Translations under genes and position numbers: made by a program
DNA from: Pseudomonadota bacterium
GTDB lineage: Bacteria > Desulfobacterota > Syntrophia > Syntrophales > UBA8958
Direction: 5' to 3'
Length of the DNA stretch: 33,473 nt
NCBI GenBank assembly: GCA_030057915.1
Contig: JASGUC010000057.1
Span: forward strand, 112,841-146,313
The notes under the pieces: generated by a model
What the model was told of the DNA's origin: nothing
What the model saw: the letters and a program-made list of their open reading frames with translations, nothing else
Database searches by the model: none
Shown here: in pieces, positions 9,913-31,775 of the stretch
Layout of the letters: every line of letters starts with the position of its first letter
How positions within the stretch are numbered: the first letter of the stretch is position 1

Positions 9913-9920
9913 TGTAGGGG

Positions 9921-10028
9921 CAGGCCCCTGTGCCTGCCCGATGTATAGCAGGTCCCTGTGCCTGCCCGATGTATAGCAGGTCCCTGTGCCTGCCCGATGT
10001 ATGGCAGGCCCCTGTGCCTGCCCGATGT
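9921..10028. repeat. 28-bp tandem repeat array, four units
   Basis: Units start at 9921, 9949, 9977 and 10005; the last is cut to 24 bp. Each reads CAGGYCCCTGTGCCTGCCCG followed by ATGTATRG and differs from its neighbours by one or two bases. Every unit contains the imperfect inverted pair GGCAGG/CCTGCC around CCCTGTG. There are no spacers, so this is not a CRISPR array. Confidence 0.9.
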
Positions 10029-11803: not shown

Positions 11804-11945
11804 CTTGCGCCGCTCTTTCGGTCAATTTGAACCGATCTCCACGCCCCTTCAGGGCGGCGCGGACGATCCCGCGTCGCGTCGAGTCGCATCGTTCCGTCCG
11901 CCTGACCCCGCCCGCCGCTTTCCGCCCACCGCCATCCGCCATCCG

Positions 11946-12456
11946 CCATCCGCCAGTCACCGGTCGCCCACCGCGCCGCCGCCTGCTTGCCCTTCGCCTC
12001 GCGCCCGCCGGTTTCGCCGGGCCGCCGGGACGGCTTTCCCTTGGAATTCAACCGCCCACCGCGCTGCCTCGTCCTACCCACCGCCAGCCATCAGGCACCG
12101 CTCACTAGGCACCGGTCGCCCGCCGCCATCCGCCCGCCGCCCGCCGCCATCCGCCATCCGCCAGTCACCGGTTGCCCACCGTGCCGCCGCCTGCCTGCCC
12201 TTCGCCTCGCGCCCGCCGGTTTCGCCGGGCCGCCGGGACGGCTTTCCCTTGGAATTCAACCGCCCACCGCGCCGCCTCGTCCCACCCACCGCCAGCCATC
12301 AGGCACCGGTCACCAGGCACCAGTCACCGGTCGCCCGCCGCCATCCGCCATCCGCCAGTCACCGGTCGCCCACCGCTCCGCCGCCTGCCTGCCCTTCGCC
12401 TCGCGCCCGCCGGTTTCGCCGGGCCGCCGGGACGGCTTTCCCTTGGAATTCAACCG
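11946..12456. repeat. Three copies of a 109-bp repeat
   Basis: Near-identical blocks occur at 11946-12054, 12154-12262 and 12348-12456. Each starts CCATCCGCCAGTCACCGG, passes CGCCTCGCGCCCGCCGGTTT and ends TTCCCTTGGAATTCAACCG. The DNA between the copies is also related (CAGCCATCAGGCACC and CCATCCGCC motifs), so the whole is a repeat array with periods of about 208 and 194 bp. It has no start signals and its open frames are Pro/Arg-rich by composition, so I call it non-coding. It fills the space between the IS element and the clpS promoter. Confidence 0.9.
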
Positions 12457-20196: not shown

Positions 20197-20925
20197 GTGG
20201 GGAGAAAATCGCTCAAATACTACGACATGATCATGGTCCTGTTCGTAACGGTCCTGATCATGAGCAACATCCTCTCCTCGGCCAAGATCGTTGACTGGAG
20301 GATGTCCCTGCTCGGTATCCCCTTGGCCTTCGATGCGGGAACGATCCTGTTCCCCGTGAGTTATATCTTCGGAGACATCCTCACCGAGGTTTACGGCTAC
20401 CGGCGTTCCCGGCGGGTGATTTGGATGGGCTTTTCCTGCCTGATCCTTTCGAGCCTGCTGCTGTATTTCGTCAAACTCATGCCCGGGGAGGGGAACTGGG
20501 AGAAAACCGTTGGCCAGGGGGCCTACGATGCCGTTCTGTCCGGCATGACCAGCGGAGGGATCGTGGCGGCCAGCCTGCTGGGCTACTGGCTGGGGGAGTT
20601 TTCCAATTCCTATGTCCTGGCGAAGATGAAGATCCTCACCGGGGGGCGCTGGCTCTGGACCCGCACCGTGGGGAGCACCCTGGTGGGCGAAGGGCTCGAT
20701 ACCCTGGTGTTCGTATCCGTGGCGGTTTTTTGCGGCGTCTTTCCCGCCGCCCTTTTCACGACCCTGGTCGTGACCAATTACCTCTTCAAGGTCGGCGTCG
20801 AGGCGGCCATGACCCCGGCGACCTACCTCGTCGTCGGGGTCCTCAAGAAGGCGGAACAGGAGGATTACTACGATTATCGGACCAACTTCAACCCCTTCTC
20901 CCGAGGCTCCGATACCTGTTCTTGA
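20197..20925 (+). CDS. yhhQ: YhhQ-type queuosine-precursor transporter
   Basis: The 242-residue protein is predicted to be an inner-membrane protein with six or so helices. It has the COG1738/YhhQ pattern: DAGTILFPVSYIFGDILTEVYGYR in the second helix region, then YWLGEFSNSYVLAKMKI and WTRTVGSTLVGEGLDT. Members import queuosine precursors (preQ0/preQ1). The start is GTG at 20197, with GGAGAGGGG upstream. I found no preQ1 riboswitch motif upstream. It is divergent from the exported-protein gene, with a strong dyad between them. Confidence 0.92.
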   Translation: MGRKSLKYYDMIMVLFVTVLIMSNILSSAKIVDWRMSLLGIPLAFDAGTILFPVSYIFGDILTEVYGYRRSRRVIWMGFSCLILSSLLLYFVKLMPGEGNWEKTVGQGAYDAVLSGMTSGGIVAASLLGYWLGEFSNSYVLAKMKILTGGRWLWTRTVGSTLVGEGLDTLVFVSVAVFCGVFPAALFTTLVVTNYLFKVGVEAAMTPATYLVVGVLKKAEQEDYYDYRTNFNPFSRGSDTCS

Positions 20926-20961
20926 ATGATTTCGTCCACTTTCTTGAATGATTTCTTCTAC
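20919..20961. repeat. 22-bp tandem duplication over the yhhQ stop codon
   Basis: TTCTTGAATGATTTCGTCCAC is followed after one T by TTCTTGAATGATTTCTTCTAC. The first unit contains the yhhQ stop TGA, so the duplication involves the end of the gene without changing it. Confidence 0.8.
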
Positions 20962-20973
20962 TCTCTTTCTTTC

Positions 20974-23382: not shown

Positions 23383-23715
23383 AGACCTTTGAAAAATGTC
23401 ATTTCGAGGAGCGCGAGCAATGTCATTTCGAAGGAGCGAAACGACTGAGAAATCTTAAGATCCCTCATGGCATTCGGGATATGGATTTCTCCCTTCGGTC
23501 GAAATGAAAAGAAAGAAGTCGAAATGACAAAAATGGCGGTTATTCAAAGCTCTCTATACAATCCCGAGACCATTGAAAAACTACCGCCCAGGCCGGCGAT
23601 CCTCGCAAGGCGTTGTTTTCGCCGCGGACGAACTGGGGGAAAAGGGGAGAGACAAGGATCGCAACGCATATGCAGGCGGGACTCCCCTCCGCCGAAGCGA
23701 TGAACGGGAGGGAAT
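23383..23715. repeat. Repeat-rich leader of cas6
   Basis: The leader holds two short-element copies (GAGACCTTTGAAAAATG at 23382-23398; GAGACCATTGAAAAACTA at 23566-23583) and a variant TATTCAAAGCTCTC at 23541-23554. It also holds the 34-bp repeat copy at 23421-23454 and several TCATTTCGA/TCGAAATGA units. I see no gene. Confidence 0.65.
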
Positions 23716-25086
23716 ATGCGCTACGGATGTTATTGTTTTTCCGCTCGTTTTCTGAATGAGGCCCGCTTGCCCGAGTACAAGGGCTCGACCTTTCGGGGCG
23801 TATTCGGCCACGCCCTCCGCTCCGTGGTCTGCGCCCTGCGCCGCCGAAGCTGCGCGGATTGCCTCCTGGCCACGCGGTGCCTCTATCCCTTCGTCTTCGA
23901 GACGACGCCGGCGGACGAGCGAAAGGCTCCCGACGGCGCCAGGGACGCCGGGGACGCCGGGGACGCCGGGGACGCCAGGGGTGCCAGGGGTGCCAGGGGT
24001 GCCGGGGGCGCAGAGGGCGCAGAGGGCGCAGGGGGCGCCGGGGGCGTAGGGGACGCCAGGGACGCCGGGGACGGCGGGCACGGCGGGGAGGGAGGCGCCC
24101 CCCGACGGCGCATCGCCGCCCGCCCCCATCCCTACGTCATCGAGGCCCCCTCCGGCGAGAGGAGCCGCTACGATGCCGGTGAGATCTTCTCCTTCAACCT
24201 CCTCCTCTTCGGCCAGGCCAACGACAGCCTCCCCTATTTCATCCATGCCTTCAACGAGGTGGGCAAAAGCGGCATCGGCGGCCGGATCGGTGGACAACGG
24301 GCCAAGTTTTCCCTCGTGTCCGTAACCGCCGCCGGACGCACGCTCTACGATGGGGCGACCAACCGACTGTATGCCGGAGAGGTCACGGAGGATCTCACGG
24401 GATTGCTCGCGCCCCCGCCGTCGGGCGTCGCCGCCCCCGTCGCTCTTCCTGATCGGATGACGGCGGAAGGGGAGGCCTTTGCGATGGCCGCCGGAGGCGA
24501 ACCGGGACCCTTTCCGCTCGCCGCGGACCCGGGTCGTTCCCCGGCGGGCGGGGAAGCCGCGCCTCTTTCGGAAACGGCCGCCGCCAACGCCGCGTCGTTT
24601 TCCGTATCGGCCCCGGTTAGCCCTGGCGCGCCTCCAAGGAAGAGACGCCCGGGGGCGACGAAGCCGCGGGAAGAGGCGCCTCCCGTCCCGGAAGGCCTCG
24701 AGGTCGAACTCCTCACCCCCCTGCGCCTGAAATACATGAACCGCCTCGGCGCCTCCCTGCCCTTTCATGTGCTGATCCGGGCCTCCCTGCGCCGCGTAGC
24801 CGCCCTGTGCCACTATTACGGCGACGGCGAGCCGGCCCTCGACTACCGGGGACTCACGGCACGGGCGCAGGCCGTGGCCGCCGATGAAACCGACCTTTTC
24901 TGGTTCGACTGGGAACGCTATTCCAGCCGCCAGGATCAACGGATGCTCATGGGCGGCATTACGGGGCGGGTTCGCTACACCGGTGAAATCGGCGAATTCC
25001 TTCCCCTCCTGAGATTCTGCGAAAAGGTCCACTTGGGCAAGCAAACCACCTTCGGCCTGGGAAGGATAAGGATAAAACACCCATGA
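23716..25086 (+). CDS. cas6: CRISPR pre-crRNA endoribonuclease Cas6 with collagen-like insert
   Basis: Cas6 cuts CRISPR transcripts into crRNAs. The 456-residue product is longer than usual for this family (about 250-350). It begins with a RAMP domain (YKGSTFRGVFGHALR), then the Cys motif CADCLLATRCLYPFVFE (Cys46, Cys49, Cys55) and HPYVIEAP. A second RAMP half ends with the Gly-rich HLGKQTTFGLGRIRI. Between FE (61-62) and HPYVIE lies a triplet repeat of (D/G)-A-(G/R/E), residues 74-127, coded by near-repeats of GACGCCGGG. Residues 231-325 form a second low-complexity Ala/Pro/Gly-rich insert. The core still looks complete. RBS CGGGAGGGA precedes the ATG. It is GC-rich compared with the csm genes downstream. 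Confidence 0.9.
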   Translation: MRYGCYCFSARFLNEARLPEYKGSTFRGVFGHALRSVVCALRRRSCADCLLATRCLYPFVFETTPADERKAPDGARDAGDAGDAGDARGARGARGAGGAEGAEGAGGAGGVGDARDAGDGGHGGEGGAPRRRIAARPHPYVIEAPSGERSRYDAGEIFSFNLLLFGQANDSLPYFIHAFNEVGKSGIGGRIGGQRAKFSLVSVTAAGRTLYDGATNRLYAGEVTEDLTGLLAPPPSGVAAPVALPDRMTAEGEAFAMAAGGEPGPFPLAADPGRSPAGGEAAPLSETAAANAASFSVSAPVSPGAPPRKRRPGATKPREEAPPVPEGLEVELLTPLRLKYMNRLGASLPFHVLIRASLRRVAALCHYYGDGEPALDYRGLTARAQAVAADETDLFWFDWERYSSRQDQRMLMGGITGRVRYTGEIGEFLPLLRFCEKVHLGKQTTFGLGRIRIKHP

Positions 25087-25761: not shown

Positions 25762-28320
25762 ATGAAATTCGATAAACATCAAGAAATACTGACCGCCGCC
25801 TTACTGCACGATGTCGGCAAAGCGTTGCAAAGGACGGGAATATCTCCGGAAAGCATGGGGGCGCGGGATTACGATTTTCAGAATATCCTTCCCGCACGCA
25901 AGCGTGACGGCGGCTACACGCATTTGCATGCCCTATTCACTTTTCTTTTTCTGTCTCAAATGCAAGCTGAAGGTTATCTGCCCTCTTTCTCCGAATTTGG
26001 TGGTCGGGATGAAAATATCATTCTTCTGGCCGCCCGGCATCATAAGCCTTCATCGGTATATGACACGATTGTTTCCGAAGCCGACTGGATTAGCTCGGGC
26101 ATGGATCGCAAACAATATGATGCCGTTGTCGAGGAACCGCCTACAGCGGATCATCATATTACAGAGCGATTGTCGCCGGTGTTTGAAGAAGTATCCTTGC
26201 GGAAGAACAAGTTTACCGCCTTTTCTATGCGTTATCCGCTCAAGTGCTTTAGCCCGGAGGCGATTTTCCCAATCCCCATGGCGGGAGAAGATAAGCGGCC
26301 CCGCGACCAGGCCGCCGCTGAATATCGTCTCCTCTTCGACCATTTTACCAGCGGGTTCAAAAGGATTGGACATTTCCTTCAATTCTCCAACTATCTGGAA
26401 TCGCTGGTGTCTCTTCTCGAAGAATCATTCTGGTCTGTTCCATCGGCTACCTACAGCGCCGGCCGGAAGGCGTGGAGCGACATCTCCCTTTACGACCATT
26501 CCGTCACCACTGCCGCGCTGGCCCACAGCTTGCTGCTCTACCACGAGGAAACAAAGACGCTTACGGAAAGCGACATCCGTAACCGTTCACTCAACAAATT
26601 CCTCTTTATAAATATCGACGTAAGCGGCATCCAAAGATTCATCTTCGACATTACCGTGGACGCCGCCCGCGGCGCCGCCCGGATGCTGCGAGCCCGCTCC
26701 TTTTATCTGGGTCTCCTCATGGAGGGCGTATTTCGCATCCTCTGCAAGGAACTTGGGTTGTTTACCGTTCACCGTCTTGTCGATGCCGGTGGACGCGCCT
26801 TGGTGCTGGCCCCCAATCTTGCCGAGACGGAGGAAAGGCTAAAGACAATTCAAGATCAGGTCGATCTATTCTGTCTAAAAAACTTCAACGCCGAACTGAC
26901 GGTGAATCTATCCTGGTTGCCCGCGTCCGGTCATGACCTTGAGATGGACCGCTTCGACGGTTTCCTGACCGCCTTGAACGAGAAGGCGCAGGAAGCGAAA
27001 CTTCACAAACTCTCCGGGTTGATAGGCAAAAAGGAGAGCCATCGTCTCGAAAAATTTTGGACGGACTATCAGCCGGGCAAGGGGCTTTGCCATGTTTGTC
27101 AAAAGATGCAGGCCGCGGTTTCCGATTCCGACCGCCATGATCACTTCATTTGTTCCTGGTGCCGTCGTTTCGCTATTTTAGGCAGCCGCATCGCGCACGG
27201 CAATTTTATTGCCTACCAGGGTGATGAAGACCGCCACGACGCCATTCCGGTTCCCGGTGGCTGCTTTGAGATTAGCCGGCAAGCGCCCCAGGAAACCCAA
27301 TGGTCACTCATCTGGGATATTTCCCGCAGCGCCGCCACCCCCTTCGCCAGAAAGCCAATCCCCAACGCTATCCCTCTCTACCATGACGGAGACCCGGTCA
27401 ATCCTTTGCTGACCGATCCCGGCTATAACTCCAGCGAGTTGATTAACGACGCGATCAAGGGGATCGCCCAGGGCGCGCCGAAGACATTCCACCACATCGC
27501 CCTTTCATCCCTAAGATTGAAGGCCGGGGGGAACAAATACGAGGGCAGGCCTTATCTCGCCGTTTTCAAGGCCGACGTGGACAACCTGGGAATGCTTTTC
27601 GGATACGGGCTCCGGGGCGACGATGGAAAGGGAAACCGTCTTACCATCGGCCGCTACGCCACCTTCAGCCGCATGATGGATCGCTTCTTCTCCGCATATT
27701 TGCCGCATCTCTTTGCCAGTAATCCGGATTTTGCCGATACATACACGGTCTTTGCCGGCGGCGACGACCTCTTCATCATCGGTCCCTGGACAAGGACCTT
27801 TCTCCTTGCGAAGCGCATCTACGATGATTTCCGCCGTTATACATGCCGTAATCCCGACATTACCCTTTCGGGGACCCTGAATCTCATGAAGAGCCGCCAT
27901 CCCGTGAACTACATAGCCCACGTGGCGGAAGCGGGGTTGCATCTGGCAAAGAACCGCAGCCTTGCCAAGGACAGCTTCCATATTTGGGACGAGGTGCTTC
28001 CATGGTCCGTTTTTCCCCTTCTTGTGGATACCAAGGAGCGCCTCGATGGACTGATGAACGATCCCAAATCAAAAGTCAGCCGCGGGCTCGTCTATGATTT
28101 CCTGACCCTCAAGGAGATGAAGCGCCGTTTTGAAAGCCGACTCAGCCTGCAATGCGGCGCCTACATTTCATTGTTCCGATACAAGTTGGGGCGCCTGAGG
28201 AAAAACAACGCGCCGGAATCGGCCGTTGATGAGTTGACGAGGCTTTTCGGAAATTATGTCGAGGGTGACGAACCGCTGCATATCGCCATCCAATGGGCCG
28301 TCTATTTAAACAGAAGATAA
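25762..28320 (+). CDS. csm1: Type III-A CRISPR protein Csm1 (Cas10)
   Basis: Csm1 is the large subunit of the type III-A effector. It cuts non-template DNA and makes cyclic oligoadenylates when target RNA is bound. The 852-residue product has an N-terminal HD domain (LLHDVGKAL, His16-Asp17), a first palm region around FINIDVSGIQRFIF, a four-Cys zinc motif (Cys443, Cys446, Cys464, Cys467) and a second palm with FAGGDDLF (GGDD at 666-669). AAGGAGG 7 nt upstream fixes the start. Both active sites are intact. csm2 follows after 30 bp. Confidence 0.97.
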   Translation: MKFDKHQEILTAALLHDVGKALQRTGISPESMGARDYDFQNILPARKRDGGYTHLHALFTFLFLSQMQAEGYLPSFSEFGGRDENIILLAARHHKPSSVYDTIVSEADWISSGMDRKQYDAVVEEPPTADHHITERLSPVFEEVSLRKNKFTAFSMRYPLKCFSPEAIFPIPMAGEDKRPRDQAAAEYRLLFDHFTSGFKRIGHFLQFSNYLESLVSLLEESFWSVPSATYSAGRKAWSDISLYDHSVTTAALAHSLLLYHEETKTLTESDIRNRSLNKFLFINIDVSGIQRFIFDITVDAARGAARMLRARSFYLGLLMEGVFRILCKELGLFTVHRLVDAGGRALVLAPNLAETEERLKTIQDQVDLFCLKNFNAELTVNLSWLPASGHDLEMDRFDGFLTALNEKAQEAKLHKLSGLIGKKESHRLEKFWTDYQPGKGLCHVCQKMQAAVSDSDRHDHFICSWCRRFAILGSRIAHGNFIAYQGDEDRHDAIPVPGGCFEISRQAPQETQWSLIWDISRSAATPFARKPIPNAIPLYHDGDPVNPLLTDPGYNSSELINDAIKGIAQGAPKTFHHIALSSLRLKAGGNKYEGRPYLAVFKADVDNLGMLFGYGLRGDDGKGNRLTIGRYATFSRMMDRFFSAYLPHLFASNPDFADTYTVFAGGDDLFIIGPWTRTFLLAKRIYDDFRRYTCRNPDITLSGTLNLMKSRHPVNYIAHVAEAGLHLAKNRSLAKDSFHIWDEVLPWSVFPLLVDTKERLDGLMNDPKSKVSRGLVYDFLTLKEMKRRFESRLSLQCGAYISLFRYKLGRLRKNNAPESAVDELTRLFGNYVEGDEPLHIAIQWAVYLNRR

Positions 28321-28350: not shown

Positions 28351-28824
28351 ATGGAACAGAAAAAACCACAGGGGCCAGTCGGCAAAAGCTATACCTATTA
28401 CGACGGAGAGGGCAGGGTCCGGACAGAGCTTTTCTCCTCCGAGGCTGAACGTATTGGCCGGGACTTGGTGGAAAAGAAATCGGAGAAGCTCAAACGTAGA
28501 GGCGATGTAGAGATAAGCCCTACCCAACTCCGACGCTTCTTTGATGATGTTAAAGCCATGGAACGTTATCTGGATCAGTTTCATGGAAAGGAGCGGGAGA
28601 ATGTCTTTCTCAAGAAACTTCCCGAGATACTGATGCTCAAGGCCAAGGTCTCTTACGCCCGAGGCAGGGATACGGTGACGGATGTCTTTCAGGATTTTAT
28701 CGAGCGCAACATGAATACAATCAGAACAATCAATGATTTTGAAGTCTTTTGCAAATTTTTCGAGTCTGTGTACGGCTTTTTTTACTACTACAACGTCAAA
28801 AAAACGGCGCCGCAGAAAAGGTAA
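28351..28824 (+). CDS. csm2: Type III-A small subunit Csm2
   Basis: Csm2 forms the inner helical filament along the crRNA-target duplex in the Csm complex. The 157-residue, mostly helical product has TQLRRFFDDVKAME, a family block, and a C-terminal FCKFFESVYGFFYYY helix. It starts after a 10-bp tandem repeat (AAGCTAATAA-AGCTAATAAG) leading into GGAGG. Its position between csm1 and csm3 fixes the assignment. Confidence 0.93.
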   Translation: MEQKKPQGPVGKSYTYYDGEGRVRTELFSSEAERIGRDLVEKKSEKLKRRGDVEISPTQLRRFFDDVKAMERYLDQFHGKERENVFLKKLPEILMLKAKVSYARGRDTVTDVFQDFIERNMNTIRTINDFEVFCKFFESVYGFFYYYNVKKTAPQKR

Positions 28825-28841
28825 TGAAAGGAGACACGCCA

Positions 28842-29543
28842 ATGATACTCAAAGATATTATCACCATCAAAGGACAAATCGTATTGAAGAGCGGTCTCCA
28901 TATCGGTGGCAGTAAGGACGACATCGAGATCGGCGGCATCGATTCCCCTGTAATCAAGCACCCTAATGGAGAGCCATACATTCCCGGCTCCTCCCTGAAA
29001 GGAAAGATGCGCTCTCTGACTGAGTGGATGGAGGAAAAAATCAATCCCAGAGGCCTGGTCCACACTTGCAGCGACGCCAAATGTCCGGTCTGTCGCATCT
29101 TCGGAACTACCGGAGATAAATGGCTTTTTGGGCCGACCCGCCTGGTGGTGCGGGATGCCTTCCTCAATGCCGCCTGGAAAAACGATATTCTTGAAAGAGG
29201 CCTTTCCCTTACCGAGGAAAAGATCGAAAACTGGATCAACCGTCTCGAAGGCAAGGCGGGGATGGGTGGCATCAGGAATATCGAGCGGGTGCCTGCCGGG
29301 GCGTTATTCGATTTCGAGATGAGTTACAAGATAATGGACATCGACAATGATGAGAAACTGGATCGGGCGAATTTCACCAAAGTGGTCCACGCCCTGGCCA
29401 TGGTGCAGATGGATGCCCTGGGGGGTTCGGGCAGCCGTGGCTACGGCAAAATTCTTTTTGCCAATATCACCAAGACGGAGAATGGCAAGGAAGAACCGCT
29501 GGTGATTCCCACGCCTGACCGTATTTTCGGGAGGGCGGCATGA
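28842..29543 (+). CDS. csm3: Type III-A RAMP protein Csm3
   Basis: Csm3 makes the backbone of the Csm complex and cuts target RNA at 6-nt intervals. The 233-residue protein begins with LKSGLHIGGS and IEIGGIDSPVIK, in which Asp34 aligns with the catalytic Asp33 of Streptococcus thermophilus Csm3. It has YIPGSSLKGKMRSL and the zinc motif CSDAKCPVCRIFG. The start at 28842 has AAAGGAG upstream and fits the family; an open extension upstream overlaps csm2 and is not used. It overlaps csm4 by ATGA. Confidence 0.97.
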   Translation: MILKDIITIKGQIVLKSGLHIGGSKDDIEIGGIDSPVIKHPNGEPYIPGSSLKGKMRSLTEWMEEKINPRGLVHTCSDAKCPVCRIFGTTGDKWLFGPTRLVVRDAFLNAAWKNDILERGLSLTEEKIENWINRLEGKAGMGGIRNIERVPAGALFDFEMSYKIMDIDNDEKLDRANFTKVVHALAMVQMDALGGSGSRGYGKILFANITKTENGKEEPLVIPTPDRIFGRAA

Positions 29544-30532
29544 AAACTTACCGGGTAAGGATTCGTTTCACGAGCCCATGCCGGACGCCGTTGCATTCCG
29601 ACACCATTTTTGGCCATCTCTGTTGGATGATTCTATACGAACAGGGGCAAACGGCGTTGTCGGAAATGCTGCGGGAATACGACGCCAAACCGGCTTTTCT
29701 CGTCTCCGAAGGCTTTCCCGCCGGCGCTCTTCCCTATCCTTTACTACCACCGCTGACGCAGGCCGCGGAAAAAGAGTTGTTCGCCGAACTGCACCCAGAT
29801 CAGGAGAAGCTTCCTCCCGAGCGACAACGCGAAAAGTATTTCGATTTCAAGGCCGATATAAAAAAGCTGCGTCGAGTATCATGGATAGATGCGGGAGAAC
29901 TGGCCGACAATAAAGGGCCGGTAACCGCCAAAAGACTGGTAAGGCATCTTTTGACCACGACGACAGGTAAAGCCGATCCACGGACTCTCACGGCGCATAA
30001 CACCATCAACCGCCTTTCCGGCACGGTGGAAAAATCCGGCGGCGGCTTCTATCATACGACGGAACTATCCTATCGTGGCCGGGCTTTCGATATTTATCTC
30101 AAGACATCCCTGCCCTGGGATGACGGCCAGATAAGATACCTGTTCACACGCTTGGGCAAGTGGGGTTACGGTGGCGACCGTTCCGTCGGCAAGGGACAGT
30201 TTGAAGTCGAGGATGCCTCCCTATGCAACCTGCCGGAGAAGGCCAATTCCGTCATGTCGCTCTCCCGATTTGTTCCCGACCCCAGCCTCGGTAAGGGTTA
30301 TTACAGCATAGAAACGAAATACGGCAAGCTTGGAGGATCTTATGCCCAGGGGGGAGGGGCCTTCCCCAAGACCCCCCTTGTCATGCTTGTCGCCGGCAGC
30401 GTCTTTTCCGTTCAAGATATAAAACCCTATTATGGGATAAGCTTGGGCACTGTTCATCCCGATCCGGCCCTCGCCAACGTTCGGCAACAGACATATCTAT
30501 TCCCTTATTTCATCAACTTGGGGGAGGCGTAA
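29540..30532 (+). CDS. csm4: Type III-A RAMP protein Csm4
   Basis: Csm4 binds the 5' tag of the crRNA and contacts Csm1 at the foot of the complex. The 330-residue protein has the N-terminal PLHSDTIFGHLCW block, and a C-terminal RAMP half with FTRLGKWGYGGDRSVGKGQF. The ATG overlaps the csm3 stop (ATGA) and csm5 begins one base after its stop, so the genes are tightly coupled. Confidence 0.95.
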   Translation: MKTYRVRIRFTSPCRTPLHSDTIFGHLCWMILYEQGQTALSEMLREYDAKPAFLVSEGFPAGALPYPLLPPLTQAAEKELFAELHPDQEKLPPERQREKYFDFKADIKKLRRVSWIDAGELADNKGPVTAKRLVRHLLTTTTGKADPRTLTAHNTINRLSGTVEKSGGGFYHTTELSYRGRAFDIYLKTSLPWDDGQIRYLFTRLGKWGYGGDRSVGKGQFEVEDASLCNLPEKANSVMSLSRFVPDPSLGKGYYSIETKYGKLGGSYAQGGGAFPKTPLVMLVAGSVFSVQDIKPYYGISLGTVHPDPALANVRQQTYLFPYFINLGEA

Positions 30533-30533
30533 A

Positions 30534-31775
30534 ATGTATCAGCCGATAAAATCCATATCCATCGCAGGGACGTTTCTCTCGCCTGTCCACATTGGCACAG
30601 GCCAGGAGATAGACCCTTTTTCGAGCTTCATAAAGCAAGATCGCCTTTATTATTTTGAATTATCGTCCGTTTTGGCGAGATTGCCCGACGCCGAGCGCGC
30701 TGCCTTCATGAAACTCCTGGGCGAAGGTTCCCTTGTGGAAGTGAGAAAATTCCTGGCAGCGAGGGTTGATCAGCGACAAGACGCCATCGGCAGCATCGCG
30801 GTCGCCCCTGATATTGCCGCCGAATATGCGGGAAAGATCGGTGACCAACACAACCAGCTCATCTTTCAGCCGTTTTTCAGAAACGGGCACAATTTTAAAC
30901 CCCTTCTGCCCGGCTCGTCACTCAAGGGGGCCATCCGCACCGCCGTTATCGACGCCCTCATCCGGGAACGAAATATTAACTTGAGCGACAGGGCAAAACG
31001 CGACCCCCGGTATATGGAAAGAGAAGTCCTTGGACACCAGGACATCGATCAGGATCCGTTCAAGGCCCTCAAATGCGCCGACATACCGCTGCCCGAGGAC
31101 GGCACCATTATCCAGCGCGTTTACAACTATTCGGAACGTCGTGAAAAGCTCACCGACCTTGGCTTGCGGATCGAAATGACCAAATCCCTCTTGGATGGGG
31201 CCGCTCTGCATTTTGAAGGCCTTCTCGATTTTTTTGAGGGATACCGGGGCAGGACCATTCCAAATCGTGATAAGAAAGCGATTTCCCTCTATTTGACGCC
31301 GGCGGAGCTGCTGTCCGCTTGCCGGTACTTTTACGCAAACAACCTTCGGGAGGAGCATGAACGCTTTTACCGGGACTCCCCCTATGAGGCGACATCGGCA
31401 AGGTTGCTTCAAATAGGCGATGAGCTGGGAAGCGACGAGTGCCTGTTACGGCTGGGTCGATTCACCCAGGCGGAATCCAAGAGCATCAACAAGTATCGCA
31501 CCGTCAAGGTGCGTGGAGAAGGCGGCACGCGGGACATGCTGCACGGCACGACGCGCAACCTGGCGGCAGGACGCTATCCGATGGGATGGATTAAATTGAA
31601 GTTCAGCGGTGTGGATGCAACGGTGAGGCCAGGGACGGATGACAATCACCCCTCGGTCACGCGGCAAACTCCTCCCACCGGGCGTCGGGTGATCATAACG
31701 GATACCGGCAAAAAGAACGCGCCGGTGGACTTAAGCAGACTTAAGGATCGTTTCCCTTCAAGAGGGAGACGATAG
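30534..31775 (+). CDS. csm5: Type III-A RAMP protein Csm5
   Basis: Csm5 caps the 3' end of the crRNA in the complex and is needed for crRNA maturation. The 413-residue product starts with FLSPVHIGTGQEIDPF, and has the glycine-rich RAMP motif LLPGSSLKGAIRTA at about 124-137 and a C-terminal region ending with MGWIKLKF. One nucleotide separates it from csm4. A tail of about 50 residues after the core is polar. Confidence 0.95.
   Translation: MYQPIKSISIAGTFLSPVHIGTGQEIDPFSSFIKQDRLYYFELSSVLARLPDAERAAFMKLLGEGSLVEVRKFLAARVDQRQDAIGSIAVAPDIAAEYAGKIGDQHNQLIFQPFFRNGHNFKPLLPGSSLKGAIRTAVIDALIRERNINLSDRAKRDPRYMEREVLGHQDIDQDPFKALKCADIPLPEDGTIIQRVYNYSERREKLTDLGLRIEMTKSLLDGAALHFEGLLDFFEGYRGRTIPNRDKKAISLYLTPAELLSACRYFYANNLREEHERFYRDSPYEATSARLLQIGDELGSDECLLRLGRFTQAESKSINKYRTVKVRGEGGTRDMLHGTTRNLAAGRYPMGWIKLKFSGVDATVRPGTDDNHPSVTRQTPPTGRRVIITDTGKKNAPVDLSRLKDRFPSRGRR

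Follow-up and report, generated by a model that had tools for sequence, protein, structure and literature searches.

The Cas6 protein encoded at positions 23716..25086 (forward strand, 456 aa) of the window, i.e. the whole stretch of 33,473 nucleotides that was analysed, contains 17 in-frame copies of a 9-bp unit within a loop of its N-terminal domain. Slippage expansion in the tolerant α1-β2 loop, resulting in a disordered and nearly neutral insert, is the probable explanation. The repeat insert is unusual for Cas6 and represents no new kind of system.

Identification of Cas6 and its type III-A neighbourhood

The gene is intact. Its product affiliates with the family PF10040 (CRISPR_Cas6) over residues 330-451 (E=1.8e-18, 67.5 bits, cut-off 25) and reached 20 bits against the NCBIfam cas6 equivalog TIGR01877, under the cut-off of 58.65. 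Judged by these profile scores, the protein is outside the TIGR01877 equivalog, yet within the Cas6 superfamily. An AlphaFold2 model calculated with 33 homologues contained two confident domains, with high confidence over approximately residues 1-60, 135-230 and 327-456 and a pLDDT <50 over residues 74-125 and 255-305. Both domains are ferredoxin-like (RAMP) folds resembling those of solved Cas6 structures. The best Foldseek match was Cas6 4ill (E=5.8e-08), and the VIA Z values were 19.7 to the Cas6 domain of 6dd5 from MMB-1 (rmsd 3.2 over 239 residues), 18.4 to 4ilr and 17.5 to the Cas6 of S. thermophilus. With the solved members of PF10040 (6dd5 MMB-1 Cas6-RT-Cas1, 4ilr/4ill, 7kft and 6fjw) the window protein shares the two ferredoxin-like domains and the glycine-rich C-terminal loop, in which G441, G447 and G449 were invariant among 33 aligned sequences. 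All residues invariant in this alignment are kept in the window Cas6.

On the same strand, the gene is followed by a type III-A csm operon composed of cas10/csm1 (25762..28320; TIGR02578, E=2.9e-172), csm2 (28351..28824; TIGR01870, E=9.8e-14), csm3 (cas7; 28839..29543; TIGR02582, E=4.1e-60), csm4 (cas5; 29540..30532; TIGR01903, E=9.6e-24) and csm5 (30534..31775; TIGR01899, E=7.3e-12), followed by a gene for a CARF-domain protein of the family TIGR02710 (32019..33296; E=8.2e-58). The latter closes the operon just short of the contig end, which is also the end of the window. Among the genes examined there was no cas1 or cas2, and the window and the sampled contigs of the host genome yielded no CRISPR array. 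Taken together, the profile match, the fold, the glycine-rich loop and the gene neighbourhood identify the gene as cas6. Similar to other Cas6 endoribonucleases, it is placed upstream of cas10-csm genes, and its model compares to solved structures with VIA Z values of 17-20; it differs from them in its length (456 aa vs ~300-350) and in two large inserts predicted to be disordered, one of which holds the 17-unit repeat.

The tandem array and the two inserts

Insert 1 (residues ~67-128; 23914..24099, + strand), as delimited by the alignment and a pLDDT <50, is an expanded α1-β2 loop of the N-terminal ferredoxin-like domain. Within it, TRF applied to the window detected an in-frame tandem array of 153 bp at 23937..24089 (+ strand; period 9, 17.0 copies, score 124). 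The consensus unit is GCC-RGG-GRY, encoding Ala-Gly/Arg/Glu-Asp/Gly, and the successive units read ARD AGD AGD AGD ARG ARG ARG AGG AEG AEG AGG AGG VGD ARD AGD GGH GGE. The identity at lag 9 was 0.90 (100 bp). Codon shuffles of the whole cas6 gene gave 0.424 +/- 0.028 with a maximum of 0.540 (n=2,000), and shuffles of the insert's own codons gave 0.549 +/- 0.041 with a maximum of 0.690 (n=5,000). Since the observed value lies above every shuffle, the array is real and exceeds what a biased composition produces. Across the 33-kb window, scanned in 50-bp steps, no further 100-bp stretch had a lag-9 identity >0.6.

The triplet repeat in Cas6 reported by a preliminary description was thus borne out, the 17 copies found by TRF lying far beyond the shuffles, and its second low-complexity insert at residues 231-325 proved real as well. 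The term collagen-like, which it had applied to the repeat, fails. The fixed residue is Ala and not Gly; the position of Gly moves between AGD and ARG units, its best phase covers 10 of the 17 triplets with a longest unbroken run of 8, and Pro is absent. A collagen-like protein with Gly at every third residue and Pro-rich X and Y positions was accordingly rejected. Bacterial collagen-like (Gly-X-Y)n proteins share with the array a triplet periodicity of amino acids encoded by 9-bp DNA units; they differ from it in the invariant Gly phase and the Pro that it lacks, and a triple helix is not expected.

In-frame tandem repeats (aaTRs) are defined by a unit length that is a multiple of three, three or more copies, a location within an ORF and absence from homologues. 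The array consists of a 9-bp unit in 17 copies, lies inside an ORF and is missing from all relatives. The ORF repeats of Borgs have units all divisible by three, almost never occur in homologues and are usually disordered (PMC9879509). Both kinds share in-ORF units divisible by three, a local origin, homologues without the repeat and disordered regions (PMC9879509). In contrast to Borg repeats, which are A-enriched and mostly perfect, the copies in the window are imperfect and GC-rich, and they reside in a bacterial Cas enzyme.

Insert 2 (residues ~232-325; 24409..24690, + strand) is non-repetitive, rich in Ala, Pro and Gly, and expands the segment that connects the two ferredoxin-like domains. 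It was delimited by loop lengths and by a pLDDT <50, the latter over residues 255-305. A DNA search of the genome with insert 2 returned short weak matches alone (best E 0.0085) and no convincing second copy.

Comparison with Cas6 relatives

Loop lengths were surveyed in 32 Cas6 relatives, mostly from the same order. The repeat-bearing loop 1 comprises 77 residues in the window Cas6 vs 7-53 (median 20) in the relatives, and the inter-domain loop 129 residues vs 39-55 (median 43.5). With a range of 7-53 residues among the relatives, loop 1 is naturally prone to changes in length; its expansions in other Cas6 proteins are shorter and non-repetitive. The closest relative, from genome G005 of the same genus (C-terminal domains ~77% identical), has a loop 1 of 26 residues and aligns directly across the insert. 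The array was missing from every relative recovered (0 of the 32) and no other genome of the order had it, which rules out an insert that was inherited or is common to relatives. The second loop of the G005 protein, at 55 residues, is the longest among the relatives, and hence the expansion leading to insert 2 may predate the split between the two species. The expansion of two loops in one Cas6 may be a coincidence or a sign of relaxed constraint.

Between the window gene and that of G005, 287 aligned core codons differ 56, 35 and 124 times at positions 1, 2 and 3, respectively. The concentration at third positions argues that the Cas6 core has been under purifying selection since the split.

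The relatives are ~300-356 aa long, in line with the normal Cas6 length of 250-350 residues that had been assumed at the outset. Among the listed PF10040 open frames of 395 genomes of the phylum, only one (912 aa) was longer than the window Cas6, and it consists of a normal Cas6 of ~317 aa behind a long upstream open stretch. Other long Cas6 proteins with similar inserts were sought among the frames of 362-912 aa and rejected: these were mostly upstream read-through, and none had a tandem repeat in loop 1. The earlier statement that no Cas6 with such a segment was known therefore held within this sample of listed frames. A literature search for Cas6 with repeat inserts, with most subscription journals outside its reach, retrieved no report. 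In the crystal of SsoCas6 (3zfv), residues 43-50 and 90-93 are disordered (PMC3652601). These stretches are 4-8 residues long and the window inserts are far larger.

Origin of the array in a repeat-prone genome

Neighbouring units of the array differ at 1.31 of 9 bases, next-neighbours at 1.93 and units at least four apart at 2.7-3.1, and adjacent units are the most alike (permutation p = 0.0001). This similarity of neighbours indicates repeated local duplication of units. Nowhere else in the host genome does such an array occur, and 154 further genomes from the order lack it; therefore, insert 1 is not a dispersed repeat or mobile element. One other of the 395 phylum genomes (G433) has a short similar array. 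The latter (locus L160, contig C118) is independent: its 9-bp unit is very similar, but the frame used there is a different one and yields GAPGAPGAPGVPGV, a Gly-Ala/Val-Pro sequence, within what is apparently an exported protein or lipoprotein.

In the 526 kb sampled, the host genome contained 11.6 tandem arrays per 100 kb, and five relatives contained 0, 1.4, 2.4, 5.0 and 6.1; these densities were computed from sampled stretches of the genomes, and GC content (59% in the host vs mostly lower values of 44-58% in the relatives) explains part of the difference. At 57.8% GC, G005 still had 5.0 arrays per 100 kb. The period was divisible by 3 in 39 of 61 arrays. Arrays with a period <=30 bp and at least four copies numbered six in the 526 kb of the host vs none in 637 kb of the relatives. 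If arrays are taken as proportional to the bases sampled, the probability of finding all six in the host is ~0.009, or 0.019 without the Cas6 array (calculated by hand). In a histidine kinase-like PAS protein of the host, the linker contains (PPT)n encoded by a perfect 9-bp array of ~7 copies (L098:2337-2398, contig C3); this array was missing from 6 of the 6 same-genus histidine kinase homologues examined.

Further in-frame arrays of the host with periods divisible by three were located at L086:5285-5476, L088:15919-15977, L091:6615-6701, L094:8019-8323 and L099:19504-19658; by eye, the proteins concerned are secretin-like, SpoIID-like, an AAA ATPase, a membrane protein and a small exported protein. 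Three other repeats were observed in the window itself. A 208-bp unit in 2.7 copies with nested 7/14/21-bp arrays of the CCGCCAT type (11908-12456) is apparently intergenic, a 28-bp repeat in 3.9 copies with 96% match (9920-10028) is apparently non-coding, and a 22-bp unit in 2.2 copies (20919-20967) lies at the end of a membrane-protein gene (20197-20925).

From the pattern of the units we infer the following course. Replication slippage or unequal exchange would have multiplied a GC-rich 9-bp unit to 17 in-frame copies in a normal Cas6 associated with a type III-A system, at a surface loop that tolerates changes in length. As the unit comprises three codons that specify small, polar or charged residues only, each gain or loss of a unit would keep the frame and merely change the length of a disordered loop. 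The two-domain core presumably still folds and still cleaves pre-crRNA. In a genome prone to repeats, the insert is most likely carried along as a nearly neutral passenger. Slippage in a surface loop, as proposed in the preliminary description, is well supported by the similarity of neighbouring units, the unique locus, the absence from relatives, the variable loop and the other in-frame arrays. The host species is represented by one genome.

Alternative explanations

Alternatively, selection could maintain the insert as a flexible tether or a docking segment that governs how Cas6 interacts with the Csm complex, with pre-crRNA or with itself. Such a role would fit the maintained frame, the hydrophilic composition and the predicted disorder, and the in-frame repeats of Borgs have been proposed to create functional disordered regions (PMC9879509). 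A frame kept without a stop codon is equally expected if the insert is useful. Within the array, what is kept is the frame and the small, hydrophilic composition, whereas the changes between units mostly alter the amino acid (Gly/Arg/Glu and Asp/Gly); this free variation suggests that the peptide is not tightly constrained. In addition, the insert is missing from every Cas6 relative examined, and the host genome makes similar arrays in unrelated proteins. A selected tether is hence unlikely.

An assembly error that created the array, or gave it a wrong copy number, is very improbable. The assembly is fragmented into 64 contigs, and tandem repeats can mislead assemblies (PMC6868369), but the array is just 153 bp long and its units can be told apart by variants whose order is not random; the reading frame is undisturbed on either side, and the homology resumes exactly in frame.

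A decaying Cas6, in which the inserts mark a loss of function, might be expected to show two large inserts and to lack a CRISPR array in the window and in the sampled part of the genome, as is the case here. Yet the gene contains no frameshift or stop, all invariant residues are kept, and csm1-csm5 follow downstream. The third-position bias of the core is strong, though averaged over both lineages, so that a recent decay would be less visible in it. Taken together, decay is extremely unlikely.

The idea that the relevant frame is the antisense ORF at 23581-25080, which is open over 499 codons and reads GVPGVPGVPG, or the +2 frame, with the array as a truly collagen-like G-V/T-P repeat akin to that of the apparent exported protein of G433, can be dismissed on homology, since the sense frame has Cas6 homology along its length. 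In addition, GC-rich genes often contain long antisense frames, and in the +2 frame the array is interrupted by a stop codon.

The four-cysteine motif

Just upstream of the repeat insert, the alignment revealed a four-cysteine motif, C-X6-C-X2-C-X5-C (Cys39, 46, 49 and 55; 23830..23880, + strand). It was invariant in the 33-sequence alignment, and its exact spacing occurred in 35 of 40 Cas6 proteins, namely the window protein and 34 of 39 others (e.g. L018-L030 and L052-L077). The cysteines of the endonuclease III [4Fe-4S] loop are spaced identically, as is also visible when endonuclease III is aligned with the Cas6 profile. A search of the PDB with the Cas6 alignment profile matched endonuclease III chains weakly (E ~0.23), over the four-cysteine segment alone, and the iron-sulfur loop family PF10576 matched one of 33 Cas6 members with E=0.0059, a score weak on its own. 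Despite these weak profile scores, the iron-sulfur lead is worth testing because the spacing is exact and conserved. Tentatively, and going by the cysteine pattern, this Cas6 group may be an iron-sulfur RNA-processing enzyme, in which case crRNA maturation would possibly depend on the cluster and the insert would be an expansion at the base of the metal site. More plainly, the motif could be a zinc site. No report linking Cas6 to iron-sulfur or 4Fe-4S was found in a literature search that left most subscription journals outside.

Implications

As the window protein shows, ~60 residues of tandem repeat in loop 1 and ~85 residues in the inter-domain loop can be accommodated by a central CRISPR enzyme whose core remains intact and apparently under purifying selection. 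The two inserts thereby mark two permissive insertion sites in Cas6. The four-cysteine motif beside the first of them is possibly a more useful lead than the repeat. Strains differing in the copy number of the repeat, if they exist, would offer a natural experiment on how a crRNA-processing enzyme responds to loop length.
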